A stretch of DNA of 64,000 nt from an uncultured Bacteroidales bacterium. GTDB taxonomy: Bacteria; Bacteroidota; Bacteroidia; Bacteroidales; Muribaculaceae. A program made the translations under genes and the position numbers. The stretch lies in NCBI GenBank assembly GCA_902779125.1, contig CACZAC010000021.1, positions 22,977 to 86,976 on the forward strand. Direction: 5' to 3'. Below are positions 15,941 to 42,235 of the stretch, piece after piece (position 1 is the stretch's first letter; every line of letters starts with the position of its first letter). The notes below the pieces were generated by a model, which made no database searches, was not told the origin of the DNA, and saw nothing but the letters and a program-made list of their open reading frames with translations.

Positions 15941-16240
15941 AATTACGGCGGCAAAGCCGCCGCCCACGGGACAAAGCTGCTTGGTGCCGCGGCGGGAGCC
16001 GCGGCATGGTCGACACTGACGCGGGAAACGGGCGAACGAGGGCGATCCTGGGGCCGCGGCAGGAGCCGCGGCATAGTCAACACTGACGCGGGAACAGGGC
16101 GAACAAGGGGCGATCTTGGGGCCGCGGCGGGAGCCGCGGCATAGGCGACACTGACGCGGGAAACGGGCGGACGGGAGGCACTCTTGGGGCCGCGGCGGGA
16201 GCCGCGGCACAGTCAACCCTGACGCGGGAACAGGGCGGAC
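15941..16240 (+). repeat. GC-rich hairpin repeat array 1 (REP-like), head plus 4 units
   Basis: A head hairpin (GGCGGC-AAA-GCCGCC, 15947-15961) followed by GCCCACGGGACAAAGC leads into four units at about 68-bp spacing. Each unit has GCCGCGGC arms around GGGA or AGGA, then CATRGTCGAC-like sequence and CTGACGCGGGAA. It fills the convergent gap between the porin and the 16299-17522 gene. The same head and unit structure recurs at 28.3, 39.3 and 42.1 kb, with a diverged copy at 22.8 kb. Not a coding region despite long Pro/Arg-rich open frames. Confidence 0.85.
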
Positions 16241-16243
16241 GGA

Positions 16244-16279
16244 AGAGGCGCGGCCGTGGAGCGGTCGCGCCTCTTTTTT
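16244..16279 (+). terminator. Hairpin with T-run beyond repeat array 1
   Basis: AGAGGCGCG and CGCGCCTCT arms are followed on the plus strand by TTTTTT. It would stop plus-strand read-through into the convergent gene at 16299; on the minus strand no T-run follows. Confidence 0.6.
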
Positions 16280-16298
16280 CATTGGGTGGTTGTGATGG

Positions 16299-17522
16299 TT
16301 ACTTGATGACCTTAGTGGCGGAAGTGGTGCCGTCGCTGTAGGTTGTTACCTGGATGGTCATGCCGCTGGGCTGTGCCATCTGCTGGCCAGCCATGTTGTA
16401 ATAGCGCACATCAGTTACCTGCTTGCCGGCATTGACCTCGTTGATTGCCGTGGTGTGGGGATAAACCTCGAGATAAACGATGTCGGACTTGTTGGTCTCA
16501 CGACCTACGGTATAGTTCACCTGGATACCGATGCGCCAATCAAACATCGGGTTGTCGCCCATGTTGGTGCGGTAGAAGTAAACGCGGCGCAGATAGAAGT
16601 CATAACCGCTGTAACCATAGGGAATCTCGGTCATGTCAGTCTCGAATCCATTGTTCAAGCCGTAGGTGTCATAGTCGAAGGTGAACAGTTCGTCTTCGTC
16701 GGTGAAGATGCTGTAAGTCAGGCAGTCGGGGTCAAGCGGGTTGCCGTCAACGTCAAAGAGGTTGATGTTGAAGTCAAAGCGCGTGTAACCGTCCTCAGCA
16801 ACGCCACAGTCAAAGAAGTCAAGAGCCTCAGGGTTGGCAGGTACTGCAGGTACTGCCTCGCCAAGCGGTGTCCAAACCGAATTCCACTCGATGGTGGCAA
16901 CGCTGCCATCATCGCTCCAAATGCCAGCAAGGCCCGTTGCCACGCAGTTGTTGGGATAAGGATTATCCACGCTGCCCTCACTGCCGACCATGGTGATGGT
17001 ACCGTTTTCAGGGTCGATGGCATAAATCACCTCCTCGGCACGGTCGTCGGCAATGTAATCGAGCCAGTAGAAGTCATCGCCCAAGTCGATGACTTCGGTC
17101 GAACCCCATGATAATATCACGCCATAGCCAAACTCCTCGTTGAAGGCGACATACTGTCCCAGAGGTACCGAAATCATTGTTCCGTCCTCAATCAGCTCTC
17201 CAACTACCCAAACGCCAGTACCCTCGGCGTAGCAGAGGATGTCCTGAATGTAAACGGTTGTGCCGTCATCGGCATAAACGACCTTCACACGTCCAGTCTG
17301 ATAGTCGGTGTCATAACCATAAAGACTCGACAGCAGGTACTCGCCCCCGCGCAAGTAATTGACGACAGTGCCCTCGGGCTGCTCGGTGATGATGTCAACA
17401 CGCGAGGTGTGATTCCTGGTAGGCTTGTCCATCGGGCGATAGGCGTTGCCGTGGGATTTCACACCAGCCGACGCACACATAGCGACAGCCATACAAATGA
17501 TAAGTAATGTTAATTTCTTCAT
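16299..17522 (-). CDS. Secreted protein with C-terminal sorting-like tail
   Basis: 407 residues. The signal peptide is MKKLTLLIICMAVAMCASAG. The central part (80-350) is Asp/Tyr/Gly-rich beta-type sequence of unknown family. The last ~40 residues read VRYYNMAGQQMAQPSG, then MTIQVTTYSDGTT and finally KVIK. The Y-NMxGQ start matches type A (T9SS-like) C-terminal sorting tails, but the following strand differs from the usual GIYI..GKK.VVK form. The same variant tail ends the unrelated protein at 42386-44239, so it is probably an interchangeable export or attachment signal. The ligand or activity is unknown. Confidence 0.8.
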   Translation of the reverse strand: MKKLTLLIICMAVAMCASAGVKSHGNAYRPMDKPTRNHTSRVDIITEQPEGTVVNYLRGGEYLLSSLYGYDTDYQTGRVKVVYADDGTTVYIQDILCYAEGTGVWVVGELIEDGTMISVPLGQYVAFNEEFGYGVILSWGSTEVIDLGDDFYWLDYIADDRAEEVIYAIDPENGTITMVGSEGSVDNPYPNNCVATGLAGIWSDDGSVATIEWNSVWTPLGEAVPAVPANPEALDFFDCGVAEDGYTRFDFNINLFDVDGNPLDPDCLTYSIFTDEDELFTFDYDTYGLNNGFETDMTEIPYGYSGYDFYLRRVYFYRTNMGDNPMFDWRIGIQVNYTVGRETNKSDIVYLEVYPHTTAINEVNAGKQVTDVRYYNMAGQQMAQPSGMTIQVTTYSDGTTSATKVIK

Positions 17523-17684
17523 ACGCTTAATAGTTTATGTTTGAATAAAAGATTCTTCCAGAGTTGGGAACATTAATCGTTAATAGTGATGCAAATTTAG
17601 TGAATTATTTCAAAATAATTGCTCAATTTGATAAAAAACATTAGTTTTGTAGTCGCAATAATTACATTCTAACAAAATACTGAA

Positions 17685-18332
17685 ATGACAATGAAACATC
17701 TGATTAAGACATCCTTAATGCTGCTGGCATTTTGCTTACCCCTGAGCGCTATGGCCTATGACTTTGAAGTGGACGGTATCTACTACATTACAGATTTGTG
17801 GGGCGACTTTGCTATGGTCTGTGACCAAGGCGAGGACGGAGATCATTACAGTGGCAATGTGACGATACCTGCTACTGTCACCATTAGCGATGGTACTACC
17901 TATCCCATTAACAGAATCAACGCCTATGCCTTCAGCAATTGCGCTGAACTCACCAGTGTAACCATCCCCGGCTCTGTCACTGAAATCGGTGACCATTCGT
18001 TTGAAAATTGCACATCTTTGTCGGCTGTGGAGCTTCCTGAAGCGCTCACTGAAATCGGCGCGGCTGCTTTTGAGGGTTGTACAGCTATTACCCGAATCGA
18101 CATTCCCGCCGGTATCACCAAAATAGGAATCTGGGGTTTCCAGAACTGTACCAACCTCACCGACGTGTATAGCCACATTGCTGACCCGTCGCAGGTGGAT
18201 TTCGGTTTCAATACCTTTGCTCTTGAAAACGAGAATTACTCGTCGCGCACGCTGCATGTGCCCGCAGGCACCATCCCAGCCTATAAGGAGGCCGGATGGG
18301 ACAGTTATTTCGGCAAGATTGTCGAGTTTTAA
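17685..18332 (+). CDS. BspA-type leucine-rich repeat surface protein
   Basis: 215 residues; ATG at 17685 or 17691. The signal peptide is KHLIKTSLMLLAFCLPLSAMA. Residues about 80-170 hold three to four LRR_5 repeats of about 23 residues, with the pattern I..YAFSNCAELTSVTIP, I.DHSFENCTSLSAVELP, I.AAAFEGCTAITRIDIP and a GFQNCTNLTDV half repeat. BspA-like LRR proteins in Bacteroidales are exported and often bind host or bacterial surfaces. The C-terminal segment (HVPAGTIPAYKEAGWDSYF) is a common closing unit. No sorting tail is present. It seems to be transcribed alone. Confidence 0.88.
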   Translation: MTMKHLIKTSLMLLAFCLPLSAMAYDFEVDGIYYITDLWGDFAMVCDQGEDGDHYSGNVTIPATVTISDGTTYPINRINAYAFSNCAELTSVTIPGSVTEIGDHSFENCTSLSAVELPEALTEIGAAAFEGCTAITRIDIPAGITKIGIWGFQNCTNLTDVYSHIADPSQVDFGFNTFALENENYSSRTLHVPAGTIPAYKEAGWDSYFGKIVEF

Positions 18333-18398
18333 GCACCATATTCACGCATAAAACCACCCTGTCAGATGCCAACGCATCGTGGGCAGCCATAACTTGGA

Positions 18399-18432
18399 TT
18401 TCTGGTGAAAAAATCAGTTTTTTCACCAGAAA
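18399..18432. promoter_or_regulatory. 34-bp perfect palindrome at the symporter promoter (operator candidate)
   Basis: Two perfect 15-bp arms (left arm TTTCTGGTGAAAAAA) surround TCAG. The right arm ends 4 bp before the -7 box at 18437, covering the -33 region of the promoter for the sodium:alanine symporter. That position suits a repressor or activator site. A terminator for the LRR gene upstream is less likely, because no T-run follows. Confidence 0.55.
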
Positions 18433-18436
18433 TTCT

Positions 18437-18444
18437 TATCTTTG
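18437..18444 (+). promoter_or_regulatory. -7 box for the AGCS symporter gene
   Basis: TATCTTTG, followed by C, matches the Bacteroidetes -7 consensus and lies 27 bp before the ATG. No clear TTTG -33 element is present; the region is occupied by the 34-bp palindrome, which hints at an activator-dependent or repressed promoter. Confidence 0.65.
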
Positions 18445-18471
18445 CACATTCAACCTTAATAAAGACCATTC

Positions 18472-19854: not shown

Positions 19855-19931
19855 GTCCAGGACATTTTAAGGATAGATTTTATTGAGATATAACCATCTC
19901 ATTATTAGCCAATTATCGATAATGAAAAATA

Positions 19932-19978
19932 TTTTTCCCGAAAAAGGCTTGCCAGTTCGGGAAAAAGCAGTACTTTTG
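19932..19978 (+). promoter_or_regulatory. SRP RNA promoter with inverted repeat
   Basis: TTG at 19949-19951, a 19-bp spacer and TACTTTTG (19971-19978) form the promoter. It is embedded in an 11-bp inverted repeat (TTTTTCCCGAA at 19932-19942 and its complement at 19956-19966), with the right arm ending 4 bp before the -7 box. The extended -7 GAAAAAGCAGTACTTTTGC matches that of tRNA-Val. Confidence 0.7.
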
Positions 19979-19981
19979 CAG

Positions 19982-20080
19982 CCGGGTAAGTCCTACACGG
20001 CCAGCTCCCTCCCAATCCCCCAGGCCTTGACCGGAGCAAGGGTAACGAGGTTGTAGCGGAGCATCAGCAAACACCTCAAG
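19982..20080 (+). ncRNA. ffs: Signal recognition particle RNA, small bacterial type (probable)
   Basis: The segment around 20015-20050 shows the SRP domain IV core: CCC, CAGG, CC, a hexaloop TTGACC, GG, AGCAA, GGGTAAC. The CAGG/AGCAA internal loop is the Ffh-binding site; the outer arms GCTCC and GGAGC can pair. A hexaloop replaces the usual GGAA tetraloop. It starts just after a strong stable-RNA-like promoter and lies in a gap without ORFs. The RNA binds Ffh protein for co-translational membrane targeting. The 3' end is not clear: no terminator is visible before the ATP-grasp gene at 20117, so the boundary given is approximate. Confidence 0.7.
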
Positions 20081-20116
20081 GGCATCTATGGACATGTTGT
20101 CGGCATTCCGTCAAGG

Positions 20117-21205: not shown

Positions 21206-21250
21206 TATTCTAGGGGATATTCCCGTTTATCAGAATCACATTCTTGCCTG

Positions 21251-22503: not shown

Positions 22504-22738
22504 TCATGTGAGCAAATGTTCAATCCATTCTACTCCATTGAGCACTGCTATCCGTTGGTATTCCTCATCAAAGCACCATACTCCTTGCCCCAGCCCTCAA
22601 ATTGGGGATAGAGGCCGCTTTTCTTTGCCCAGTCACTGCTCGAGAGCTTGATGTCACATACTAGATGAGATAAAGTGACGGTCGGCGCCAAGCAACTAGC
22701 ATGCGGATATGGTTCTCGATGCCTCCAATACGGCACTA
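22504..22738 (-). pseudogene. Decayed REP-associated (IS200-like, Y1) transposase fragment
   Basis: Three short pieces in different minus-strand frames line up with the second half of an IS200-like/RAYT transposase: GGIENHIRMLV (HUH region, second His changed to Arg), LSHLVCDIKLSSSDW with FEGWGKEYGA, and FDEEYQRIAVLNGVEWIEHL before a stop. Frameshifts separate the pieces, and the segment with the catalytic Tyr is deleted. A -7-like TACCTTTG remains upstream (minus strand, 22750-22757). It lies 80 bp from a diverged copy of the GC-rich hairpin repeat, which such enzymes typically mobilise. Recognition is from family pattern memory, not alignment. Confidence 0.7.
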
Positions 22739-22818: not shown

Positions 22819-22980
22819 GTGAGGCACCCGCGTTGCGGGAGGCCTCACAATGGGATAACTATATCGCCACCGCGGAGCGGTGGCACGGGCGGACCTGGAT
22901 GGCGGGGATGTCAAGGGCGATGACAATAAGGGCCGTGGCGGGAGCCACGGCATAGATAAACCCTGATGGCGGGGGTGCTG
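22819..22980 (+). repeat. Diverged hairpin repeat copy next to the transposase remnant
   Basis: Three hairpins in a row: GTGAGGC/GCCTCAC enclosing CCCGC/GCGGG (22819-22848), GCCACCGC-GGA-GCGGTGGC (22866-22884) and GCCGTGGC-GGGA-GCCACGGC (22932-22951), then CATAGATAAACCCTGATGGCGGG. The last two correspond to the head and unit of the other arrays, with paired changes (for example GCCGCGGC to GCCGTGGC matched by GCCACGGC). The rest of 22508-23085 holds the transposase remnant and a terminator. Confidence 0.75.
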
Positions 22981-22986
22981 TGGAGA

Positions 22987-28257: not shown

Positions 28258-28800
28258 ACAGGCGGGAGAGGAAGCCCTGACGCGAGGGGCCGCGACGGGA
28301 GGGATGCTTGAGGAATGACGGCGGCTTTGCCGCCGCCCACAGGACAAAGCGGGCGGGAACAGGGGCCGCGGCAGGAGCCGCGGCATAGCCGACCCTGACG
28401 CGGGGGTGGCGGCAATGACGCGGGAACTGCGGGAACAGGGGCCGCAGCGGAAGCCGCGGCATAGCCGACCCTGACGCGGGGGCGGGGGCGATGACGCGGG
28501 ACAAAGCGGGCGAAGGGGCCGCGGCAGGAGCCGCGGCATGGGCGACCCTGACGCGGGGGCGGTGGCGCTGACGCGGGAAGAGGCGGGAACAGGGGCTGCG
28601 GCGGGAGCCGCGGCATGGTCGACCCTGACGCGGGGGCGGTGGCGCTGACGCGGGACAAAGCGGGCGCGAACAGGGGCCGCGGCATAGCCGACCCTGACGC
28701 GGGGGCGGGGGCGGTGGCGCTGACGCGGGACAAAACGGGCGAAGGGGCCGCGGCGGGAGCCGCGGCATGGTCGACCCTGTCGCGGGGGGTGGCATTGAGG
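28258..28800 (+). repeat. GC-rich hairpin repeat array 3 (largest), head plus about 6 units
   Basis: The head hairpin GGCGGC-TTT-GCCGCC (28320-28334) and GCCCACAGGACAAAGC are followed by units near 28363, 28439, 28516, 28592, 28673 and 28745, about 76 bp apart. Each has GCCGCGGC arms around a GGGA/AGGA loop, CATRGYCGAC, CCTGACGCGGGGGCGG and a second TGACGCGGGA element. The unit at 28673 has lost one arm. The array sits in the 1057-bp divergent gap between the TonB receptor and the MBOAT gene; the rest of the gap holds two promoters and a leader hairpin. Pro/Arg-rich open frames here are artefacts. Confidence 0.85.
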
Positions 28801-28960: not shown

Positions 28961-30406
28961 ATGCTTTTTAATTCTCTGGAGTTTTTCCTGTTCCTGCCGA
29001 TAGTGTTTGTTCTCTATTGGTTTGTCTTTCGTGGTCGCCGTTGGCAAAATCTGCTGGTGGTGGCTGCGAGTTATGTCTTCTATGGCTGGTGGGACTGGAG
29101 ATTCCTGATATTGATTGCCATCACGTCGTGCTGCAGTTTTGCCAGTGGTTTGCTGCTGGAGCATTTTGAGGGGAAACGTCGTTTTCAGCAACTTGTAAGT
29201 GCCTGCAACATTGTGATTAACCTCACTATCCTCTTCATTTTCAAATATTTTAACTTCTTCACCGAGAGTTTGAACATGCTGTTGGATTCGTTGTTGGGAT
29301 ACCACCTGGACAACGTGACCGTGAACATTGTCCTGCCTGTGGGCATCAGTTTCTATACCTTCCAGGCCTTGAGTTACAGCATCGACGTCTATCAGAAGAA
29401 ACTGCGCGCAACGCATGACGTGGTGGAATTCTTCGCCTACATCAGTTTCTTCCCGCAGCTGGTGGCTGGCCCTATCGAACGTGCCACGAACCTGCTGCCA
29501 CAGTTCCAGAGGGAACGCCGCTTTGATTACGCCCAAGCAGTTGACGGCTTGAGACAGATGCTGTGGGGATTCCTTAAAAAGCTTGTCGTTGCTGACAACT
29601 GTGCCAAAATCGTGAATGACTACTGGGACCAATACCAGGACTTGCCCGCTGTGTCGCTGTTCCTGCTCGGTGTGCTATTTACGTTCCAAATATACTGCGA
29701 TTTCTCGGGCTATTCAGATATTGCCATCGGATGTGCCCGGTTGTTCGGGTTTAACCTGATGCGGAATTTCAATTTCCCGTATTTCTCGCGCAGTATTCCT
29801 GAGTTTTGGCGCCGATGGCATATCTCGTTGACCACATGGTTCCGTGACTACATTTATTTTCCGCTGGGTGGCAGCCGTTGCGGCAAATGGAAAATCATCC
29901 GCAACGTCTTTATCGTGTGGGCCGTCAGCGGTCTGTGGCACGGAGCGAACTGGACATTCGTCTGCTGGGGCTTGTTCCACGCCACCCTGCTGGCCATCTA
30001 TAACCTGTTCGGCATCAACACCAAGTACAAGCAAGTGGTAGCGCATGGTCGCTTTTTCCCCAACATCAAGGAAACGCTGCAGATGGGGTTGACGTTCTTC
30101 CTGGCCGTAATCGGCTGGATTATCTTCCGAGCCGAGACGATGACGCAGGCTTGGCAATTCCTCACGGCGATGGTAAGCAACAAGTTCTTTGATGCCTCGC
30201 TTGTCAAGGGTGGTACCTACCTGCTGCTCGGCATTGCGCTGCTGGCAGTGGAATGGCTGCAACGTGACAAACAGCACGCGTTGCAATTCGGCAGTCAACC
30301 TGCATTTAAGCACGCAGCGGTGCGGTGGGGCATCTATTACCTGATCATCCTTATCTGTTACCAGTTTGCCGGTTCATCCCAAACGTTTATCTACTTCCAA
30401 TTCTGA
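28961..30406 (+). CDS. MBOAT family O-acyltransferase (AlgI-like)
   Basis: 481 residues, many membrane helices. AlgI-like MBOAT proteins move acyl (usually acetyl) groups across the cytoplasmic membrane to an exported glycan. Signature regions are present: SFYTFQALSYSIDVYQKK (about 130), FFPQLVAGPIERATNLLPQF, EFWRRWHISLTTWFRDYIYF and VSGLWHGANWTFVCWG, with the catalytic His in GLWHGA near residue 327. The next gene, 8 bp on, is an SGNH-like exported protein that would be the periplasmic acyl acceptor/transferase, as in AlgI/AlgJ-X pairs. Confidence 0.93.
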   Translation: MLFNSLEFFLFLPIVFVLYWFVFRGRRWQNLLVVAASYVFYGWWDWRFLILIAITSCCSFASGLLLEHFEGKRRFQQLVSACNIVINLTILFIFKYFNFFTESLNMLLDSLLGYHLDNVTVNIVLPVGISFYTFQALSYSIDVYQKKLRATHDVVEFFAYISFFPQLVAGPIERATNLLPQFQRERRFDYAQAVDGLRQMLWGFLKKLVVADNCAKIVNDYWDQYQDLPAVSLFLLGVLFTFQIYCDFSGYSDIAIGCARLFGFNLMRNFNFPYFSRSIPEFWRRWHISLTTWFRDYIYFPLGGSRCGKWKIIRNVFIVWAVSGLWHGANWTFVCWGLFHATLLAIYNLFGINTKYKQVVAHGRFFPNIKETLQMGLTFFLAVIGWIIFRAETMTQAWQFLTAMVSNKFFDASLVKGGTYLLLGIALLAVEWLQRDKQHALQFGSQPAFKHAAVRWGIYYLIILICYQFAGSSQTFIYFQF

Positions 30407-30414
30407 TAGCAGCA

Positions 30415-31338
30415 ATGAAAAAGTTCATATATAAGACAGTAGCGTTCGTTTTGCCGTTCTGGTTGTTGCTGACGGTGGTGGACTACCTGTTTTCTCAGGT
30501 TGCCAAGGAGACGAACGACTATGCCTTTGCTATCGAGTCATGGCATGACGTGATGAATGGGGATGTTGAAGCCGATGTTGTTGTCATGGGAAGTTCCCGA
30601 GCGTTGTACCATATGAATCCAGTGGTCATGGACAGCATCCTGGGCGAAAACACCTACAACCTGGGTGTTGACGGCAGGAACCTGAACACCCAGATCAACA
30701 AGTACTACATCTACCGCAAACGCAACAAGAAACCAAGGCTCATCATCCAGAACATCGACGCCTTTGCACTAAAATATGAGGTAGGTTACAATAAATACCA
30801 GTTCTTCCCCTACTTCTGGGATGAGGACATGAGAAAAGCCTATTTCAACGAAGAGCCATTTACCGCTGGAGAAAAGTACTTGCCAATGTATCGATATATC
30901 CATCGCGGATTATGGGTTTTTCTCTCGAATAACGAGAAGCATCTAGTGAAGGGATTTAGAGGTCAAAACTCCTCGTGGAACGGAAGTGCATTTGAGCGTA
31001 TTGACTCTATTCCTTTTGTTGTCAGTGACACGACCTCACGCAGATTTGACGAATATCTGTCCCAAGTCAAAGCAGACGGCATCAAAGTGGTGTTTGTGTA
31101 CTCCCCTATCTACATCGGCGCCACCCGCAAGATGACAGACCAGAAGCGGGTGTATGCCACCTATCAACATTATGCCGACAAATACGACATTCCCATCCTG
31201 GATTACACGAATATGTGGCTGTGCTACGATACCAGCTATTTCTACAACGCCATGCACCTGAACAAACAAGGTGCCGACATCTTCTCGGACTCGCTGGCCC
31301 ATGACATCAAGAGACTTGGTATCCTGAATAAGCCATGA
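30415..31338 (+). CDS. SGNH-hydrolase-like protein, partner of MBOAT
   Basis: 307 residues from the ATG at 30415, 8 bp after the MBOAT stop; the open frame extends upstream into the MBOAT gene but the signal/anchor (FIYKTVAFVLPFWLLLTVVD) marks the real start. VVVMGSSRALYHMNP supplies the block I Ser (near residue 60) and AMHLNKQGADIFS the C-terminal His of an SGNH fold. Such proteins complete O-acetylation of exopolysaccharide or cell-wall glycan outside the membrane, taking the acyl group from the MBOAT protein. Target glycan unknown. Confidence 0.83.
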   Translation: MKKFIYKTVAFVLPFWLLLTVVDYLFSQVAKETNDYAFAIESWHDVMNGDVEADVVVMGSSRALYHMNPVVMDSILGENTYNLGVDGRNLNTQINKYYIYRKRNKKPRLIIQNIDAFALKYEVGYNKYQFFPYFWDEDMRKAYFNEEPFTAGEKYLPMYRYIHRGLWVFLSNNEKHLVKGFRGQNSSWNGSAFERIDSIPFVVSDTTSRRFDEYLSQVKADGIKVVFVYSPIYIGATRKMTDQKRVYATYQHYADKYDIPILDYTNMWLCYDTSYFYNAMHLNKQGADIFSDSLAHDIKRLGILNKP

Positions 31339-31394
31339 AGTTTTCCCAAAATTGTGCTCGCCAAGCCGTTCATGCCCATAGACAATAGAGACGG

Positions 31395-31418
31395 CAGCAT
31401 CTCTGTTACGAGATGCTG
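31395..31418. terminator. Hairpin between convergent genes
   Basis: CAGCATCTC and GAGATGCTG arms with a six-base loop lie about 55 bp after the SGNH-like gene and 45 bp beyond the end of the convergent acyltransferase gene. No strong T-run on either side, so termination is uncertain. Confidence 0.45.
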
Positions 31419-31461
31419 AAAATGGGATGAGCGTGTCGTCTAATCGATAATCGGGAGAGAA

Positions 31462-32451
31462 TTATTTCAGCCTCAGGACCTTACTTATATAGTCTGAAAC
31501 CGGCATAAGCAGACATGCGACCAAATAAGACGTGATGACCCAAACCAGCCAGATGAGTGGTGGCCACTTGAACATGAGATAAAAGTCGTTAAACAGTTTC
31601 CATGCCAGATAACCGTGAACAAACCACATCATCATTGATTTGTTGCCAAGAGGCACAAAGACGTGCTGTATCAATTTTGTTGGCGAGAAATGGAGAAGAA
31701 TCAAAACTACAATTGCGGCAAAATAGGGAACAATCGGTATGGGCAATAACCATTTAACCACAAACACAATGACGAGCAAAGCCAATACCAACAGATTCTT
31801 ACCTTTCAACTTGCTCCAAGTCAAGTCATGGCCTGCAAAAAACCACCTTGCCATCACAGCACCAAAGGTGAAGTTGGACAAGGTCTGAAGGACCAATACG
31901 GGATGATATGCCCAATAGTTATAGCGCAGGAAAGTCATATAGTAACGACTTATTAACCAGGTCATTAACAATGAAATAGCGCAAGTCACCAAGATGGATA
32001 ATATATTGCCTAAACGGTCAACGCACTTAAAAATGACCCTTGAACCCAGTGAGACAAATACGTATGGCAGCAAGAACCATGTGTACTGGTTATAATCCCA
32101 ACGCCAGCCTAAAAAGTTTGTCAGCACAAGATAAGGAGACCTTGGAAACAATTCAGGTTTCAACCAAAACCCAAGAGCAACCGCGAAGAGCAGCACTACT
32201 AGCCAAAATGAGATAAACAGGCGCAAGTTGCGTTTTAGCAGATAACTATAAGTGAGACGATTATTCCTATAAGCGTAGTACAATCCATAACCACTGACAA
32301 CCATAAAAAACGCAATCGGATGACACGTTTTTCCTATGAACATAGCCATTTCATTTGATAATCCGTTGGGGCCTAACACACGACCAAAATGGTATGCCAG
32401 CATCAGTAGAATTGCCAAGCCTTTTACTAGTGCAGATTGTTCTCGACTCAT
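31462..32451 (-). CDS. Acyltransferase 3 family membrane protein
   Basis: 329 residues from the ATG at 32451 (MSREQSALVKGLAILLMLAYHF); an upstream in-frame ATG at 32490 would add 13 residues. About ten membrane helices. The LVKGLAILLMLAYHFGR opening with its conserved His, followed by a FMVVSGYGLYYAYR stretch, is the acyltransferase 3 signature. Members O-acylate surface glycans or lipids. Its position opposite the MBOAT/SGNH pair suggests a glycan-modification neighbourhood, though it is on the other strand with its own promoter. Confidence 0.85.
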   Translation of the reverse strand: MSREQSALVKGLAILLMLAYHFGRVLGPNGLSNEMAMFIGKTCHPIAFFMVVSGYGLYYAYRNNRLTYSYLLKRNLRLFISFWLVVLLFAVALGFWLKPELFPRSPYLVLTNFLGWRWDYNQYTWFLLPYVFVSLGSRVIFKCVDRLGNILSILVTCAISLLMTWLISRYYMTFLRYNYWAYHPVLVLQTLSNFTFGAVMARWFFAGHDLTWSKLKGKNLLVLALLVIVFVVKWLLPIPIVPYFAAIVVLILLHFSPTKLIQHVFVPLGNKSMMMWFVHGYLAWKLFNDFYLMFKWPPLIWLVWVITSYLVACLLMPVSDYISKVLRLK

Positions 32452-32565
32452 ATTATTATCCGTAATACTATTAAATGAAACCCCTTTCAAAAACCACAGG
32501 ACCGAAGAATCTCATGGATTATAAGTTCCATTGGTAAAAATGAATTTGCGGAGGTTTAGCGGTTG

Positions 32566-32595
32566 CAAAGATAGTCATTTATTCAGAGATAACAA
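32566..32595 (-). promoter_or_regulatory. Promoter of the acyltransferase 3 gene
   Basis: Minus-strand TATCTTTG (32566-32573), a 19-bp spacer and TTG (32593-32595). About 115 nt of leader precede the ATG at 32451. Confidence 0.65.
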
Positions 32596-32714
32596 GAATT
32601 ATCTCATCATCCCACGTCGAAACCATACCAGAACCGGTAGTGTTCCCGATGAGACACCACCGATTCCGGTAATCATTTCCTTTATTATTCACCCATTACG
32701 GGGATGGAGACTGT

Positions 32715-35150
32715 CTAGTCGTATAAAGAGAGGATGGCATGCACGACTGCGTTTACATCGGCGATATTGAGCTCGCCGTCGTTGTTGACGTCCATTGTTA
32801 TGTCTTGGGAATTCAACAGGATGGCTTTGACGATTGCATTGACATCGGCAATAGTGACCTCGCCGTCGTCGTTCAGGTCGCCAGTGAGCTGCACATGATT
32901 CTTGATTTCTGTCACATGAAGCAGAGGTCTGTCATTAAACACGTTGAAAATGAATCCCTTGACATCATATTGACTCCCTTTAACCATCGCGGACATGTCA
33001 ATTCCATAATTGTTGTAAATCTCCAACTCATTGCCATACTTATCTCCCATTTTGTAAAGCATATTGTAACTTTGATTTACAAAGGTTAAATTATTCAACT
33101 GGACATAGTGATGCGTCATGTCGCGTGCCTGTGCCACATTAACCACATGAGGCTGTACCAGTGCTCCATGGTCGATGGGCGACCAATCTCCGACCGGGAA
33201 AATGAGAGGAATTCTGGCACTCTTAGTCCAGTGGCAGAGGACGTTGTCGATAAGGTCTCCGTTGCTGAAAGTGCCGTTGATGCTTCCAGATACCATTTCA
33301 TCGACGCCATCGGCATCACGAACATACATCAGCATGCCCCACTGGTAGATTGCCCTAAGCGGCTGTACAAATCTTGCCACGACATTGCCTGGCAACTCAT
33401 ACAGTTCGCTAATTGTCCTCACCTCAACCGTATCCTGTGGCAGAATAGGCAGCAGTCGATAGTGGACTTCGCCGGCATCATCAGTATAGCTGTGCACAAT
33501 ACCGGTTAACTCGTGGTAATGCCCCGAGGACAGGGGCTGGTCAAACAGGTTATATCCCTTGCAGGCATCGCCAGTGGCATCGGTCAAGACGAAGTTCCGA
33601 TTGTTGATATCGCTTACCGTGACATCATTCATCACTACATAGTGCGCCCAAAAATCATGGTTAACATCTTGAATGGTAATCAGTTCGGGCTCAATTTCCA
33701 CATTTTGTATTGGTGACGATGTGATTTTAGGGGCATCAAAACGCACCTCGCCATCGACAGTGGCTTTGGTGACACTGTAGGATGAGGTGTTCATGACGTC
33801 ACCAGGGCACATGGGAGGTAATTCTCCATACAAGAGTCCATAGCCGGTAAAGTCCCTGGCAAATGTGTAAGAATCATGTTGGTAAAGGACGGTGGGTGTG
33901 AAATTGATAGTGAATTGTTTTCCGTCCGCCACTTGGCTATAGTCAGTCCCAAGCCCCTTGCGGTCAGGTTTATCGGTCAAGAACACGAAACCAGGGGCAA
34001 CCACGATGGCATATTCGTCGGCTGGAACCGGAGGATCATCATCTATCACCATAGGGAAATAGAAATTCTGATAAATCGTACAGGTGTTGCCGTCCTGGTC
34101 AACAAGCGTTTTACCGCCTCTCCAAACCACCTGACGGAGGATGACAAAATGGCCTAAATGGCGTGTGTCGATTTGAGGAATCGAAATCTCCTCGGCCTCA
34201 AGCTCCTCATATCCGATAATGTTTCTATAGTTTGAAACATTTTCAAGCGCAGGCAAAGAATAATCTTGATGTTCAGCTACTGTGGCCGTCACATTGCCAC
34301 CTGAGATGATATCTCCCTGATGCAGGCCAGACTCTGGCAAAAGAAATGCAGCATAACCCGTCTTGTCTTTCACAAAGACAAACTCTTGGTCAGTTGCCAG
34401 TACCGTCATGTCGTGATGCAGGGTAAGCGTTGTTCCAATGGGCGATATCGCGGCTTCGCCCAAGCCGCCTGTCCTGTCGATGAAGGTATAGGTGCGTGAA
34501 ACCACATCGCTGACCTGACCGCCTCGCACAGTGATAGCCTTGACAGTAGTCGTTTTTCTCAGGATAAACGGTGAAGTATATTTTTTAGAATTTGGTGTGG
34601 GATTGGTGCCATCAAGTGTATAGCGAATCGAGGCGTTGTCTGTTGTGCACCACATGGACACTTCCAATTCGTCATAAATATCACCTTCGTCACTGGGGAG
34701 AATGTGCGGCGCACTGAGCGAGTCGCCATTTATAGTCACTGTTATTTGGGCAATCCTCACTTGTTTATTGGGCGCTGTGAAGACGATGCTCGCTTCGTTG
34801 CCCGTCCACAAGCCGTCGTTGTTGTTGGCGACATAATTGCCGACGTCAGCGGTCAGGTAAACGGGAGAATACTGCTGATCGGTCGATGAGACGGGACAGT
34901 CCATCTGCACCGAGGTAATCACGCTCTCTTGTGCAGTGATTGTACAGGTACTGCCTGGAAACATCACATAATAAGCGAATAATGACGCAGCACCAGACAT
35001 AGTAAGTTTAACACCCTCTTTCTCAATGACATAGGGATTATCGACAGAGAGAACATCCACCCGAGGGTTAAACGTAACAGTCCTTGCGAGAACAGTTCCC
35101 GCAAACATACACAGAAACAAGGCAGACAACAAACGATTCATAATAGTCAT
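32715..35150 (-). CDS. Large secreted multidomain protein with dockerin-like tail
   Basis: 811 residues. Start at 35150 or 35141; both keep the signal peptide MNRLLSALFLCMFAGTVLA. A chitobiase/hexosaminidase C-terminal-like domain (about 155-225) shows IRYTLDGTNPTPNSKKYTSP and TTTVKAITVRGG. The long middle part repeats beta-rich OB-like segments (IVLRQVVWRGGK, YVVMNDVTVSDINNRNFVL, YVQLNNLTFVNQS). Two dockerin type I-like loops close it: GDLNDDGEVTIADVNAIV and MDVNNDGELNIADVNAVV. No catalytic domain is recognisable, so a scaffold or binding role is possible. It begins 45 bp after ruvC on the same strand. Confidence 0.82.
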   Translation of the reverse strand: MTIMNRLLSALFLCMFAGTVLARTVTFNPRVDVLSVDNPYVIEKEGVKLTMSGAASLFAYYVMFPGSTCTITAQESVITSVQMDCPVSSTDQQYSPVYLTADVGNYVANNNDGLWTGNEASIVFTAPNKQVRIAQITVTINGDSLSAPHILPSDEGDIYDELEVSMWCTTDNASIRYTLDGTNPTPNSKKYTSPFILRKTTTVKAITVRGGQVSDVVSRTYTFIDRTGGLGEAAISPIGTTLTLHHDMTVLATDQEFVFVKDKTGYAAFLLPESGLHQGDIISGGNVTATVAEHQDYSLPALENVSNYRNIIGYEELEAEEISIPQIDTRHLGHFVILRQVVWRGGKTLVDQDGNTCTIYQNFYFPMVIDDDPPVPADEYAIVVAPGFVFLTDKPDRKGLGTDYSQVADGKQFTINFTPTVLYQHDSYTFARDFTGYGLLYGELPPMCPGDVMNTSSYSVTKATVDGEVRFDAPKITSSPIQNVEIEPELITIQDVNHDFWAHYVVMNDVTVSDINNRNFVLTDATGDACKGYNLFDQPLSSGHYHELTGIVHSYTDDAGEVHYRLLPILPQDTVEVRTISELYELPGNVVARFVQPLRAIYQWGMLMYVRDADGVDEMVSGSINGTFSNGDLIDNVLCHWTKSARIPLIFPVGDWSPIDHGALVQPHVVNVAQARDMTHHYVQLNNLTFVNQSYNMLYKMGDKYGNELEIYNNYGIDMSAMVKGSQYDVKGFIFNVFNDRPLLHVTEIKNHVQLTGDLNDDGEVTIADVNAIVKAILLNSQDITMDVNNDGELNIADVNAVVHAILSLYD

Positions 35151-35762: not shown

Positions 35763-35769
35763 CGTTGCG

Positions 35770-35800: not shown

Positions 35801-35850
35801 CAATGGCCACGGATGAATCATCAGAAACCTGAAAGACCCACCCGTGGCCA
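35791..35850 (-). terminator. Terminator of the alpha-amylase gene
   Basis: TGGCCACGGA (35804-35813) pairs with CCCGTGGCCA (35841-35850) over a 27-base loop; on the minus strand TTGTTGTTTTTTT follows. It lies just after the amylase stop and overlaps the ruvC promoter. Confidence 0.7.
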
Positions 35851-35864
35851 CGGTTGCTTATCGA

Positions 35865-39095: not shown

Positions 39096-39273
39096 ATCCT
39101 GAAGTTTTTAAGTTATGGTTTGAATTGCTTGGTTATTCAGATGGCGGTAGACCATAGCAGCGCATGATGGTCCCTTTGATGTGTCCAAAATTAGTGATTC
39201 TTGCCCACATTATTATAAATACCAGTGGCAGCAGCTAGTAAAAATCAACGCAAACGATTGCACGTAATGATGT

Positions 39274-39308
39274 AGTTAATAGTTAATAGTTAATAGTTGA
39301 TAGTTGAG
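39274..39308 (+). repeat. Tandem heptamer repeat AGTTAAT x5
   Basis: Five 7-bp units: three AGTTAAT, then AGTTGAT and AGTTGAG. They lie immediately before hairpin repeat array 4 in the amylase-HAD phosphatase gap. Confidence 0.8.
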
Positions 39309-39310
39309 TT

Positions 39311-39510
39311 ATGGCGGCAGAGCCGCTGCCCACGGGACATGCTGCTCTTGGGGCCGCGGCGGGAGCCGCGGCATAGGCGACCCTGACGCGCGGGGCAACC
39401 CTAATTGGGGCCGCGGCGGGAGTGGCGGCACAGGGGGACCCTGACGCGAGGGCAACCCTAATGGGGGCCGCGGCGGGAGCCGCGGCATAGGCGACCCTGA
39501 CGCGGGGGCT
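39311..39510 (+). repeat. GC-rich hairpin repeat array 4, head plus 3 units
   Basis: Head GGCGGC-AGA-GCCGCT and GCCCACGGGACAT (39313-39339), then units near 39350, 39407 and 39464, each with GCCGCGGC arms (the middle one broken to GTGGCGGC), CATAGGCGACCC and TGACGCG. It lies in the 507-bp divergent gap between the amylase and the HAD phosphatase; the rest of the gap holds heptamer repeats and a promoter. Confidence 0.85.
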
Positions 39511-39553
39511 GACGGCTGGCGGGGCTCTTATTGGGGGATTGTTGGGGATTTTT

Positions 39554-39585
39554 TGCATCTGTTGGAGAAAAGCAGTACCTTTGCG
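39554..39585 (+). promoter_or_regulatory. Promoter of the HAD phosphatase gene
   Basis: TTTG (39554-39557), a 20-bp spacer and TACCTTTG (39578-39585), followed by C. The extended AAAAGCAGTACCTTTGC is identical to that before tRNA-Val. The start ATG is 18 bp beyond the -7 box. Confidence 0.8.
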
Positions 39586-39602
39586 GATATTTTGAGAGAG
39601 AA

Positions 39603-40271
39603 ATGAAGAAGCTGGTGATATTTGACCTGGATGGGACGCTGCTCAACACGATAGAGGACTTGGGGCAGGCGGCGAACTATGCGCTGGAACGTAATGGCTA
39701 TGCTACTCACAGCATGGCGAGTTACCCGTATTTTGTGGGTAATGGCGTGCGAAGGCTGATGACGCGTGTGCTGCCTGAGGATGCCCGCGACGATGAGACG
39801 GTGGACAGGGTGCTGGGGGACTTCTTGGAGTACTATGATGAGCATTGCACTGACTACACGAAGCCTTATAATGGTATGCACGAGCTGCTTCAGGACCTGC
39901 GCGACCTGGGCGTGTCGATGGCTGTTGCGAGCAACAAGTATCAGAAGGCTGTGGATAAGATTATCCCGCACTTCTATCCTGACATTCCCTTTATTGCTGT
40001 CGAGGGCCACCGTGAGGGCGTTAACGTGAAGCCTGACCCGAGTGTTGTGTTTGCCATCCTTGCTAAGGCTAGAGTCGCCAAGGCCGACACGCTGTACATC
40101 GGTGACAGCGGTGTGGATATGGAAACTGCCCGTCGTGCGTGCATCGATTCGGTGGGCGTTACCTGGGGATTCCGCAGCAAGAAGGAACTGGTGGAATATT
40201 ACGCCAATGTCATCGTCAACAATCCTGTTGATATCTTGGGTATCGTTGAGAACGGGATTGGAATAGCTTAA
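39603..40271 (+). CDS. HAD superfamily phosphatase (phosphoglycolate phosphatase-like)
   Basis: 222 residues from the ATG at 39603, chosen because the HAD motif I follows at once (VIFDLDGTLLNT, Asp8 and Asp10) and because the promoter lies inside the upstream open frame. Motif II is VASNK, the motif III Lys is in VKPDPSVVF, and motif IV is YIGDSGVDMETA. An alpha-helical cap (about 15-80) of the Gph/PGMB type is inserted after motif I. It hydrolyses small phosphate esters; 2-phosphoglycolate is the usual guess for this subgroup but is not proven by sequence. A strong 15-bp inverted repeat follows the stop. Confidence 0.88.
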   Translation: MKKLVIFDLDGTLLNTIEDLGQAANYALERNGYATHSMASYPYFVGNGVRRLMTRVLPEDARDDETVDRVLGDFLEYYDEHCTDYTKPYNGMHELLQDLRDLGVSMAVASNKYQKAVDKIIPHFYPDIPFIAVEGHREGVNVKPDPSVVFAILAKARVAKADTLYIGDSGVDMETARRACIDSVGVTWGFRSKKELVEYYANVIVNNPVDILGIVENGIGIA

Positions 40272-40307
40272 TTCCATTTAAACGTGGTAAGGCACGTTTA
40301 AATGGAA
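40272..40307. repeat. Perfect 15-bp inverted repeat after the HAD gene
   Basis: TTCCATTTAAACGTG and its exact complement flank GTAAGG, starting at the stop codon of the HAD gene. No T-run follows, so it may be an RNA 3'-end structure rather than a classical terminator; a heptamer repeat follows directly. Confidence 0.75.
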
Positions 40308-40334
40308 GTTTAGAGTTTAGAGTTTAGGGTTTAG
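40307..40334 (+). repeat. Tandem heptamer repeat AGTTTAG x4
   Basis: Three AGTTTAG units and one GGTTTAG, directly after the inverted repeat and about 35 bp before the transporter ATG. Confidence 0.8.
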
Positions 40335-40367
40335 AGATAATTAGTGAATTGAAGCTTAAAAAAGGAT

Positions 40368-42053
40368 ATGGACTGGTTTACTGAATTATTTGTCGGGAAC
40401 AGTGTGGCACACACTTTGATTATCTATGCCATCGTGATTGCTATCGGCGTGATGCTGGGCAAAGTGAAAATCTTTGGTATCTCGCTTGGAGCGACCTTTG
40501 TGCTGTTTTGCGGTATCTTAGTGGGTCATCTGGGCGTAGAGGTGGACCATGCGACGCTCAAGTTCATCCAGGAGTTCGGTCTGATACTGTTTATCTTCTC
40601 GATTGGTCTGCAGGTGGGTCCGAGCTTTTTCTCGTCGTTCAAGCACGAGGGCATCCAGCTGAACGGTATCGCCATGCTTATCGTGGGTCTGAACGTCGCT
40701 GTAGCGTTTGCCATCTATTTTATTGCCGGCAACATCAGCATTACCGACCTGGTGGGCGTGATGAGCGGTGCTGTTACCAATACTCCCGGTCTGGGTGCTG
40801 CCCAGCAGGCCCTTATAGAGACGGTGGGCGATGGTGCCACTGAACTCAACGAGTCGATGTCGCTGGGCTATGCCGCAGCCTATCCGCTGGGCGTTGTGGG
40901 CATCATCCTGTCGATGGTGCTGCTGAAAATCATCTTCAAGATTAATGTCGAAAAAGAAGTGGATGACATCGAGCGCGAGAAGGAGGACAGCCAGCTGAAG
41001 CCCCACGTCATCACCTATCGGGTGACCAACAAGCTTATCTATGACATTCCCGTGACTCGGCTGCATGCCATCATCGACCGCAACTACACGATTTCACGCA
41101 TGAAACGTGAGGACGGTACTGTGGAGATTCCGCAGGGCGAGACCATCATCCGCAAGAATGACGTGCTGCGCATCGTGATGAGCGCTCACGACCAGGATAT
41201 GTTTGATGCCATTATCGGTCCGCATGAGGACTTTGACTGGCAGATGGAAACGTCCCCGAAGGGCATCGTGAGCAAGCGCATCGTCATCACCAACAATGAG
41301 CTTAACGGCAGGAAAATCGGTTCCATCCGCCTGCATGAGGGCTATAAGGTGAACGTCACGCGCGTCTATCGTGCCGGCGTGGAACTGCTCGCCAGCCCCA
41401 ACCTGTCGCTGCAAGTGGGCGACCGCTTGACAGTGGTGGGCCGTGAGGAGGACGTTGACCGCCTGGGCAAACGCATGGGCGACTCTTACAAGCGTCTGGA
41501 GCATCCCAACCTGTTCACGATGTTCATCGGCATCTTCCTGGGTATCATCGTGGGCTCCATTCCCATCATGTTACCGGGAATGTCGGTGCCCATGAAACTG
41601 GGTCTGGCAGGAGGACCGCTGATTGTCGCCATCCTTATTGGCCGCTACGGCTATAAAGCCCGACTTGTCACCTATACCAGCACTGCAGCCAGCTTGATGC
41701 TGCGAGAATTGGGCCTGTGCCTGTTCCTTGCATCGGTGGGTATTGCTGCCGGCGGCAAGTTTGTGTCGACTATCCTGAGTGCCAACGGTGCCATGTGGGT
41801 GCTGTATGGCTTCCTGATTACTATCATTCCGCTGATTATCGCTGTCATCGTGGCGCGTGGCAAACTGCACCTGAACTATTGCACGATCATGGGCGTTGTT
41901 GCCGGTGCAACTACCGACCCTCCTGCACTGGGCTATGCCAATAGCACTGCAGGTAATGACGCTCCCGCGGTGGCGTATGCGACGGTTTACCCGTTGACGA
42001 TGTTCATGAGGGTGCTGATTGCTGAATTGATAATTATCTTTGCTGTCGCTTGA
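40368..42053 (+). CDS. AAE family transporter (YidE/YbjL type, two TrkA-C domains)
   Basis: 561 residues. Two homologous membrane halves of about five helices each (20-190 and 385-560) flank two soluble TrkA-C/RCK-C-like domains (about 210-290 and 300-375; RKNDVLRIVMSAHDQ and LQVGDRLTVVGREEDVD). Each membrane half contains a SGAVTNTPGLGAAQQ or VAGATTDPPALGYANS motif, the duplicated signature of the aspartate:alanine exchanger family. Substrates of this clade are mostly unknown; dicarboxylates or amino acids are likely. It is separated from the HAD gene by repeats and seems independent. Confidence 0.9.
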   Translation: MDWFTELFVGNSVAHTLIIYAIVIAIGVMLGKVKIFGISLGATFVLFCGILVGHLGVEVDHATLKFIQEFGLILFIFSIGLQVGPSFFSSFKHEGIQLNGIAMLIVGLNVAVAFAIYFIAGNISITDLVGVMSGAVTNTPGLGAAQQALIETVGDGATELNESMSLGYAAAYPLGVVGIILSMVLLKIIFKINVEKEVDDIEREKEDSQLKPHVITYRVTNKLIYDIPVTRLHAIIDRNYTISRMKREDGTVEIPQGETIIRKNDVLRIVMSAHDQDMFDAIIGPHEDFDWQMETSPKGIVSKRIVITNNELNGRKIGSIRLHEGYKVNVTRVYRAGVELLASPNLSLQVGDRLTVVGREEDVDRLGKRMGDSYKRLEHPNLFTMFIGIFLGIIVGSIPIMLPGMSVPMKLGLAGGPLIVAILIGRYGYKARLVTYTSTAASLMLRELGLCLFLASVGIAAGGKFVSTILSANGAMWVLYGFLITIIPLIIAVIVARGKLHLNYCTIMGVVAGATTDPPALGYANSTAGNDAPAVAYATVYPLTMFMRVLIAELIIIFAVA

Positions 42054-42059
42054 CGGGGT

Positions 42060-42235
42060 GACGGCGGCAGAGCCGCCGCCCACGGGACAGGCTGCTCTTG
42101 GGGCCGCGGCGGGAGCCGCGGCATAGAGGGACGCTGTCACGGATGGACTGGACGGGCTGGACTAACTGGATGGGTTGGACAGACTGGACGGGCTGCTCTT
42201 GGGGCCGCGGCGGGAGCCGCGGCATAGAGGGACCC
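42060..42235 (+). repeat. GC-rich hairpin repeat array 5, head plus 2 units
   Basis: Head GGCGGC-AGA-GCCGCC and GCCCACGGGACAGGCTGCTCTTGG (described in pieces; 42063-42102) precedes two units (near 42101 and 42201) with GCCGCGGC-GGGA-GCCGCGGC stems and CATAGAGGGAC. A TGGAC-type minisatellite is inserted between the units. The array fills the 332-bp convergent gap between the transporter and the 42386-44239 gene. Confidence 0.82.

Follow-up and report, generated by a model that had tools for sequence, protein, structure and literature searches.

Arrays of REP-like palindromes linked to a RAYT-like transposase point away from a single switch, with opposite synonymous-site shifts on its two sides, in an uncultured Bacteroidales bacterium

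In an uncultured Bacteroidales bacterium (G000) and its close relative G082 (RUG14590), arrays of short palindromes linked to a RAYT-like transposase reverse their orientation at a single switch, and genes around it have shifted at synonymous sites toward the array strand. We lean, if only just, towards reading these as RAYT-associated REP arrays that are oriented by an outward-acting, strand-asymmetric process. The stretch under analysis (the window) comprises 64,000 nucleotides of G000 contig C21 (CACZAC010000021.1), window position 1 being contig position 22,977. What determines the orientation and spread of REPs is unclear, though REP/RAYT systems are widespread; with array polarity and an independent synonymous-site record both flipping inside one 17-kb interval, it can be asked here whether REPs respond to local strand-asymmetric DNA synthesis or bring it about.

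Five arrays of common design, one head hairpin followed by 2 to 6 units, had been proposed for the window by a sequence-only reading. This design holds at 15.94, 28.3, 39.3 and 42.06 kb, with 4, 6 (one truncated), 3 and 2 units, and does not at 22.9 kb, where a single diverged unit accompanies a diverged head-like hairpin; nor does the ARA loop ascribed to the head apply to the 28.3-kb array, whose loop is TTT (Table 1). Units follow each other head-to-tail, and matches on the opposite strand are only palindrome shadows (nhmmer E 0.5 or worse). Standard pairs occupy 99.1% of 232 cells in the 8-bp unit stem (29 distinct units), mostly because the stem sequence hardly varies, and folding of six strands as single-stranded DNA gave z-values of -1.86 to -3.75. 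As is typical of REP elements, the palindromes are short and repeated in intergenic gaps. An Rfam scan of the whole window returned one tRNA and nothing else. Some arrays lie near T-runs, in gaps between convergent genes.

Table 1. Features of the window (window coordinates; periods in bp from Tandem Repeats Finder)
Feature	Position	Strand	Basis
Switch zone without arrays	1..15944	.	Left arrays all -, right arrays all +
Array 1, head hairpin	15945..15979	+	nhmmer head match (C21:38921-38955)
Array 1, four units (15981-16026, 16049-16093, 16116-16161, 16184-16229)	15981..16229	+	nhmmer; period 68
Decayed IS200-type (Y1) transposase remnant beside diverged array	22515..22725	-	By-eye reading
Head-like hairpin, diverged, then ACGGGCGGAC	22866..22884	+	By-eye sequence reading; without profile match
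Lone diverged unit	22930..22967	+	nhmmer E 7.7e-7
Array 3, head hairpin, TTT loop	28318..28352	+	nhmmer
Array 3, six units (28672-28703 without 5' part)	28361..28786	+	nhmmer; period 77
Array 4, head hairpin	39311..39346	+	nhmmer
Array 4, three units	39348..39506	+	nhmmer; period 57
Array 5, head hairpin	42061..42096	+	nhmmer
Array 5, two units	42098..42245	+	nhmmer; period 101

That the family is REP-like, as had been suspected, gains support from a RAYT-like Y1 transposase with matching units on both sides, in this genome and in relatives; such a physical link to a cognate RAYT gene characterizes REPs. Units lie close on either side of a gene for a Y1_Tnp protein with the HUH motif MPDHLH at G000:C2, G082:C5 and G100:C96 (loci of ~3 kb; best flanking unit per side E 2e-8 to 2e-11, weaker extras down to 4e-3), and the G050:C46 transposase locus has weak flanking units only (0.03-0.44); the six long RAYT-like loci comprise three with strong units on both sides, a fourth with weak ones and two without. 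PF01797 is present in 7/7 transposases scanned (2 slightly below the Pfam cut-off) and MPDHLH is invariant in 6/6 aligned, which provides the Y1 domain with HUH motif expected of a RAYT. REP-associated tyrosine transposase (NF047646) is the best NCBIfam family for 5/5 proteins tested, although none reaches its 80-bit curated cut-off: four long proteins score 36.0 to 47.5 bits and a 266-aa protein 58.5. The C-terminal part matches no Pfam family in four proteins and, weakly, DprA chains (E about 0.2). Beside the ortholog of the diverged window array, PF01797 also matches at G082:C3:135042-135149.

With REPtrons (REP plus RAYT/TnpA_REP; E. coli, Pseudomonas, Stenotrophomonas) the family shares intergenic short palindromes and a conserved foot tag as well as a linked HUH/Y1 transposase flanked by units, including +/- unit pairs at the transposase locus. 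Unlike in REPtrons, the tag reads CTAT/CCAT rather than GTAG on the C-rich strand, which carries it 5', the arrays run head-to-tail with regional polarity and a single switch, and there are ~52 copies here as against the more than 100 per genome given as usual in the portion of PMC2817692 drawn on. The label BIME-like fits in part: paired + and - units occur at transposase loci and only there, whereas the window arrays, though clustered repeated palindromes like BIMEs and REPINs, run head-to-tail instead of alternating in orientation. As for RAYT subclasses (Quentin et al. 2018; the portion of PMC6006769 covering them), Y1 domain, HUH motif and NP motif are held in common and subclass 2.2 shares the DHLH and W-E motifs, yet none of subclasses 2.2 to 3 as set out there fits the third motif (YLDDNP and variants) plus the length (~320-340 aa) of the proteins here. 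On this basis, we would class the palindromes, with their foot tag and link to a RAYT-like HUH/Y1 transposase, as REP-type elements that have probably multiplied head-to-tail in intergenic gaps.

All five window arrays are + (nhmmer), as first read from the sequence, and their independence of neighbouring gene direction was borne out, too: of the 12 C21 arrays, 4 have convergent, 4 divergent and 4 tandem flanks, and these do not predict orientation (tallied by hand, ignoring ORFs that overlap arrays and using, at the 39.3-kb array, the + HAD gene rather than a longer - ORF). This speaks against the arrays being ordinary 3'-UTR hairpins that terminate transcription or stabilise mRNA, a role we find scarcely credible even though some arrays do sit between convergent genes near T-runs and REPs elsewhere are, in the portion of PMC3733652 drawn on, mainly downstream of genes. 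The idea that copies follow one chromosome strand was not confirmed, however, as seven further arrays on C21 (C21:3.8-21.8 kb, 1-19 kb left of the window) are all - (nhmmer), so orientation flips between window -1.2 and +15.9 kb. A scan independent of the repeat family, for GC-rich hairpins followed by CAT[AG], found 11 on the + strand of C21, none of them left of C21:38961, and 18 on the - strand, none right of C21:21734; 29/29 tagged hairpins segregate by side of the switch, in comparison with 148 + and 150 - for hairpins regardless of tag. The arrays and the switch recur on C3 of G082, and arrays on G000:C32 and C27 map with matching orientation to the outer ends of the G082:C3 domain. In the G000/G082 lineage, arrays fill one domain (~53-185 kb of G082:C3) and point away from the switch with their G-rich strand outward. 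As both genomes are close relatives, this orientation dipole counts as one evolutionary event.

A second record of polarity comes from matched four-fold-site GC skew in G082:C3 compared to the colinear contig C30 of G050, a relative almost without arrays; matched sites replaced whole-ORF third-position skew because ORF calls near arrays could include array sequence. Relative to G050, skew is shifted negatively left of the switch and positively right of it. Genes <1 kb from an array have moved by +0.281 toward the array strand (16/16), those at 1-5 kb by +0.089 (11/14) and at 5-10 kb by +0.094 (14/15), with -0.005 (5/12) at 10-20 kb and -0.018 (6/17) beyond 20 kb; for G000 against G050, 14/14 genes within 1 kb of an array are shifted the same way. 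A second outgroup, G094:C5, gave +0.191 (13/13) on the right side, where G050 and G094 are concordant with each other (+0.025, 5/10), and against G094:C2 on the left 8/8 genes at 94-111 kb are negative. On the array strand, C to G substitutions number 388 versus 125 from G to C on the right and 92 versus 26 on the left, compared with 207 versus 169 beyond 190 kb. Control pairs stayed close to zero, be it with arrays in both genomes (-0.010 to -0.001 in all distance classes) or without arrays (+0.010, 11/20). Fitted breakpoints fall at 116 kb of G082:C3, inside the array switch, and at 190 kb, just beyond the last array; the former (fits within 5%: 111 to 121) corresponds to window ~3.4 kb (range ~-1.6 to 8.5 kb). 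While the first fit (71 genes; 0/500 permutations as good) permuted on a coarser grid and took in 17 genes from 200-226 kb, a stretch inverted in G050, a refit with 54 colinear genes on one grid returned identical breakpoints (0/300 permutations as good) with a regional term of 0.128 (se 0.031) and a near-array term of 0.148 (se 0.039).

Several comparisons count against our favoured reading of a process acting outward from the switch. G000 versus G050 shows +0.262 (4/5) at 10-20 kb where G082 has no shift, comparisons with G094 are mixed (agreement at 4/9 for C3, 6/8 for C13, 6/6 for C5), two left-arm genes at 94-97 kb of G082:C3 are unshifted against G050 (-0.03, +0.03) and AT skew on the right side is no mirror image of GC skew. 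Nor were units seen to move. The tally for all genes left of 112 kb is -0.189 against G050 with 4/10 positive, the four being one of the two 94-97-kb genes plus three at 33-38 kb with a single paralogous match in G050 between them.

Might the arrays themselves drive the asymmetry? G-rich hairpins could stall forks or expose one strand so that nearby genes drift, and new arrays might survive or seed only when oriented like those beside them. Consistent with this, the effect is strongest <1 kb from arrays (16/16), the near-array term (~0.15, se 0.04) persists beside the regional one, and G050:C21, whose 10 arrays are all +, is shifted positively against G100 (9/10 at <1 kb, 15/16 at 1-5 kb, 2/4 at 5-10 kb, 5/5 at 10-20 kb). 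However, genes 4-16 kb from arrays within the domain have shifted as well (14/15 at 150-182 kb are positive, G082:C3 vs G050), the five colinear genes past the last array (190-198 kb, 5-10 kb away from it) scatter about zero (-0.14 to +0.18), and the single orientation flip is left unaccounted for, so that we hold this option to be real but somewhat unlikely. More doubtful still is an inversion of the region, or its import by recombination from an oppositely replicating relative, together with its arrays and skew. Inversions do occur here - G094:C2 and G100:C6 have the 115.9-132-kb block of C3 inverted with respect to the genes on its left, and G050:C30 has 200-226 kb inverted - but across the switch G050:C30 and G082:C3 are colinear, without a visible breakpoint from ~94 to 198 kb, and one inversion cannot move both arms outward, the left arm having shifted further in its existing direction.

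In the favoured reading, array orientation would be coupled to a strand-asymmetric DNA process moving outward from the switch point, and the same process would render synonymous sites of domain genes G-rich and C-poor on the array strand. It may expose single-stranded DNA on which the transposase could place or copy units in just one orientation, and we infer that the process could be outward-moving DNA synthesis. Y1 transposases need single-stranded DNA, and IS608 and ISDra2 favour the lagging-strand template (PMC6006769, in the portion drawn on). Yet the canonical REP strand, read as in E. coli with the tag 5' of the palindrome, points inward here; hence the lagging-template rule asks for inward forks and GC skew for outward ones, a conflict that tells against the outward process. 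Break resection with deamination of the exposed 3' strand was discarded, as we would expect it to produce the opposite skew sign.

Similar to a bidirectional replication origin, skew (- to +) and polar elements change sign at one point with G-rich strands outward. Different from an origin, the derived shift stops on the right of the switch after ~75 kb (116 to 190 kb), and a main replication origin at the switch was rejected: none of the landmarks of a chromosomal origin (DnaA boxes, initiator or parS nearby) was found there. The window lacks a DnaA-box cluster, the subset of switch-zone ORFs scanned contains no initiator gene, parS lies on contigs other than C21 and dnaA, in G000, on C18. What we may tentatively envisage, and consider unlikely as a specific mechanism, is that a replichore of the G000/G082 lineage newly acquired a local zone of bidirectional DNA synthesis around window -1.6 to 8.5 kb, be it through secondary initiation or through recurrent break-induced synthesis; RAYT-placed arrays on exposed single strands and synonymous sites would then record its outward polarity, and the arrays would serve as a fossil record of the way forks travel. 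Were a secondary initiation zone involved, bacterial replication programmes could change locally without rearrangement.

Ter and KOPS systems have sites of opposite polarity either side of one point. The switch shares that layout and the canonical REP strand is oriented inward, as would suit a replication terminus with arrays acting as polar fork-trap barriers or FtsK-type guides. This appears improbable to us, given that skew turns from - to + across the switch, the reverse of what a terminus would show with a G-rich leading strand, that genes flanking the domain to its left and right on G082:C3 mostly share a negative sign, and that no dif-like site turned up at the switch (loose patterns gave none common to all array-bearing genomes, which are not closed). 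A G-rich leading strand is weakly suggested by skew around parS: in closed G004, 10/12 samples left of parS are negative and 7/8 on the other side positive, and G082:C4 skew turns - to + ~35 kb from parS. A good dif candidate in G004 (at 106,955) has two neighbours whose G000 orthologs lie close to dnaA, which makes the G004 origin/terminus layout uncertain, tRNA, Rfam and DnaA-box checks being indecisive; an Rfam scan of the parS contig returned nothing.

A genome-wide search with a covariance model (R1), as proposed with the sequence-only reading, gave 52 matches in G000, 47 in G082 and 56 in G094 (E<=0.001), copy numbers that are probably undercounted, as several contigs end in arrays, and that stay below the >100 copies of REPs. 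R1 matches occur in 28/101 genomes of the genus (E<=0.001) and, at E<=1e-6, in 3/225 family genomes (>=90% completeness), all three in this genus, which upholds a lineage-specific family. Orientation by replication across the whole genome finds no support: array orientation agrees with local GC skew at 28/49 loci outside C21/C3 (20/40 with stronger matches only), so absolute local skew fails as a predictor there, and C21 itself carries both orientations. In the literature on Bacteroidetes REPs, origin-proximal repeats, REP orientation versus replication, RAYT with DprA and local skew, we did not find the pattern described. Orientation is nonetheless shared regionally, with 22/23 neighbouring array pairs agreeing on single fetched stretches: 9/10 on G000:C21, 9/9 on G050:C21, 2/2 on G094:C3, 1/1 on G094:C35 and 1/1 on G100:C34, the last not fully independent because its region is orthologous to part of G050:C21. 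The mixed clusters at RAYT loci (G000:C2, +4 and -2; G082:C5, +1 and -2) are single clusters and contribute no pair, and G082:C3, where 11/12 pairs agree, was excluded from the tally as orthologous.

Within the window (contig C21 of the source genome G000, 22977-86976), we recover four arrays of the GC-rich hairpin repeat family and one diverged copy, every one on the plus strand and placed as the sequence-only reading had located them. A 30-row unit alignment keeps most of the stem, the tag CA and the downstream AC and CTG invariant and, because each of the four arrays has its own period (68, 77, 57 and 101 bp), local tandem duplication, spacer included, probably multiplied the copies. A seven-base tandem repeat, TAGTTAA (window 39273-39305), lies just left of array 4, and a 6-kb block (window 28961-35150; MBOAT acyltransferase to dockerin protein) directly adjoins array 3 in G000; it is absent at the same place in contig C3 of the close relative G082, where the next shared gene comes straight after the array.

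Repeat elements and RAYT-like proteins sharing the conserved C-terminal part
Feature	Sequence or coordinates	Strand	Occurrence
Head hairpin	GGCGGC-NNN-GCCGCY + GCCCAYRGGAC		one per array, ahead of units
Unit	GGGGCCGCGGC-GGGA-GCCGCGGC-ATAG-N2-GACCCTGWCGCGGG		2 to 6 per array
RAYT-like protein	L156:1021-2022	-	
RAYT-like protein	L160:1252-2217	+	
RAYT-like protein	L159:1252-2232	+	

Left of the window, C21 has a further 23 kb with seven arrays, every one on minus. When the unit profile is ignored and only a GC-rich hairpin followed by CAT[AG] is scanned for, C21 has 29 tagged hairpins, 18 on minus (all at or left of 21734) and 11 on plus (all at or right of 38961). G082:C3, largely syntenic with C21, has the same switch, with minus matches at 53-111 kb and plus matches at 128-186 kb, the exception being one weak plus unit match (E 0.038) overlapping a minus unit at 53.1 kb; in the profile-independent scan 13/14 minus tags lie at or left of 111.4 kb and 15/17 plus tags at 128 kb or further right. 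By hand comparison, each of the 12 C21 arrays is matched by one at the orthologous G082 place (unit number differs in several). G000:C32 and C27 carry arrays orthologous to those lying farthest out on G082:C3 (53 and 185 kb), their orientation matching once contigs are turned.

Array orientation is not explained by flanking genes, since the gaps holding arrays are 4 convergent, 4 divergent and 4 tandem; the earlier claim of independence from gene direction is thus borne out. The accompanying claim that arrays follow replication or the chromosome strand is not supported, given the seven minus arrays on C21 itself. Genome-wide replication direction does not account for orientation, because parS pairs lie on other contigs (G000:C52, G082:C4, G050:C31, G094:C21) and, outside C21 and C3, 28 of 49 loci have arrays oriented as the local third-position skew (strand-balanced) would predict. 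Neighbouring arrays on single stretches are co-oriented in 22 of 23 pairs by our tally. The parS pair (G000:C52:12040 and 13138; G082:C4:82138 and 83227) combines a perfect site with a one-mismatch site at a distance of 1.1 kb and is a convenient marker of the origin in this genus.

Over about 94 to 198 kb of G082:C3, contig C30 of G050, another genome of the genus, is colinear. C30 has no gene-order breakpoint relative to G082:C3 at the switch and is nearly array-free, its one unit (C30:234915, model E 7e-8) lying in the switch zone. We compared GC skew at matched four-fold sites whose first two bases are identical; the difference (G082 minus G050) is -0.43, -0.50, -0.18, -0.41 and -0.28 for five genes at 98-111 kb, small at 114-125 kb (-0.09 to +0.14), +0.260 at 128.5-150 kb (8/8 genes) and +0.172 at 150-182 kb (14/15). 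It is +0.009 at 182-232 kb (16/31, a tally including 17 genes at 200-226 kb that are inverted in G050), and the eight colinear genes from 190 kb onward have a mean of -0.001 (4/8 positive). Fitting two free breakpoints to the 54 genes that are colinear and lie right of 90 kb places the breaks at 116 and 190 kb (112-120 and 186-194 for fits within 5% of the best). The array switch (111.4-128.4 kb) encloses the 116-kb break, and the 190-kb break follows closely on the last array (185-186 kb). This fit explains 55% of the variance, was equalled by 0/300 permutations on the same grid and keeps its breakpoints with all 71 genes; both a regional (0.128, se 0.031) and a near-array term (0.148, se 0.039) count.

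The shift is derived in G000/G082, since it appears against the outgroups and not among them: the right arm differs from a second array-poor outgroup, G094:C5, by +0.191 (13/13 genes), while no difference is seen in that arm between G094:C5 and G050 (+0.025, 5/10), and left-arm genes are all negative against G094:C2 (8/8, 94-111 kb) and G100:C6 (5/5, 98-111 kb), around which G050 scatters in the same block (4/9 and 4/8 positive). Central-block genes are also negative against G094:C2 and G100:C6, where that block is inverted. The array strand loses C and gains G (C to G vs G to C is 388 vs 125 on the right, 92 vs 26 on the left arm, 207 vs 169 beyond 190 kb). Contrary to a uniform picture, two left-arm genes at 94-97 kb lack the shift against G050, three at 33-38 kb, which have one paralogous match in common and were excluded from the fits, have the opposite sign, genes 10-20 kb from an array are shifted in G000 (4/5) but not in G082, AT skew is not mirrored on the right arm, and G094 loci are mixed (C3 4/9, C13 6/8, C5 6/6). 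In G094:C2 and G100:C6, a block of ~16 kb with a glpABC-like operon (G082:C3 115.9-132 kb) is inverted with respect to the genes on its left; in the synonymous skew of the block's genes G050 and G094 are about 0.1-0.5 apart, and the inverted block offers a natural yardstick for the effect of inversion.

We find REP-like units, a RAYT-like (REP-associated tyrosine transposase) gene with units of its own, polar arrays and a matching synonymous shift. To our minds, an outward-moving process may expose ssDNA and thereby let the transposase place units in a single orientation, after which tandem duplication would enlarge the arrays. REP/RAYT biology, ssDNA dependence, lagging-strand targeting by IS608 and ISDra2 and dif sites are covered in passages of PMC6006769, PMC3733652, PMC8266576, PMC3091885 and PMC3025954; no description of polar REP domains with synonymous-site asymmetry was found in these passages or elsewhere in the literature searched, largely open-access journal papers. 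Skew around parS in G004 (10/12 samples on the left negative, 7/8 on the other side positive) and in G082:C4 weakly suggests a G-rich leading strand, G050:C31 giving no clear sign. If so, the domain signature would be that of outward forks, hence of an initiation zone rather than a terminus. Contrary to this, the strand corresponding to an E. coli-type REP, with the tag 5' of the palindrome, is directed inward; a lagging-template rule would then call for inward forks, in conflict with the skew reading.

The RAYT-like gene at G000:C2:94.4-95.9 kb has the HUH motif MPDHLH and sub-variant units on either side. PF01797 matches occur in 6/6 genomes searched, the sole one in G004 being a short IS200-type gene, and five genomes have long RAYT-like genes, at six loci in all. 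These genes are flanked by units on either side at G000:C2, G082:C5 and G100:C96, weakly at G050:C46, but not at G100:C13 or G094:C14. An alignment of the six long proteins spans 345 columns (51-93% identity to the first). For 5/5 proteins tested, the best NCBIfam family is NF047646 (REP-associated tyrosine transposase), all scoring under its cut-off. A decayed IS200-type remnant adjoins the diverged 22.9-kb copy by eye, and a PF01797 match lies beside the orthologous G082 array. The conserved C-terminal part of the RAYT-like proteins (SPSISPGEK..FENGYPIIILQENGF) had no Pfam match in 4 proteins tested and weakly resembles DprA chains (E about 0.2).

A search of G000 (97 contigs, 3.35 Mb) and its relatives with R1, the covariance model of the repeat, gave matches in 28/101 genomes of the genus at E<=0.001, six having >10 (G094 56, G000 52, G082 47, G100 19, G092 13, G050 11). 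At E<=1e-6, 3/225 family genomes match, all 3 of this genus, under a completeness threshold (>=90%) that excludes G082 (88%) and G100 (86%); the exact unit pattern occurs in one record of a named-species collection from which near relatives of the window may be missing. As contigs C18, C23, C55, C26 and C35 of G094 end inside arrays or <1 kb away, assemblies seem to break at the repeats, and the copy numbers are probably underestimates.

A possible second case of polar arrays with a skew shift is G050:C21, whose ten arrays (87 to 156 kb, all plus) lie a little to the right of a switch in skew near 80 kb. Compared with G100, genes are shifted toward the arrays within 1 kb (9/10), at 1-5 kb (15/16), 5-10 kb (2/4) and 10-20 kb (5/5), a comparison that, G100 being rearranged in this region, carries no control of replication direction; G100:C34 has units itself. 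Left of the switch no arrays of the family were found, the tagged hairpins there being two isolated plus ones at 3.9 and 11.5 kb. The stretch just left of the array-bearing half (G050:C21:50000-80000) is poor in GC (0.40-0.44), and its third-position skew is strong (-0.27, -0.44 and -0.19 in three 10-kb bins).
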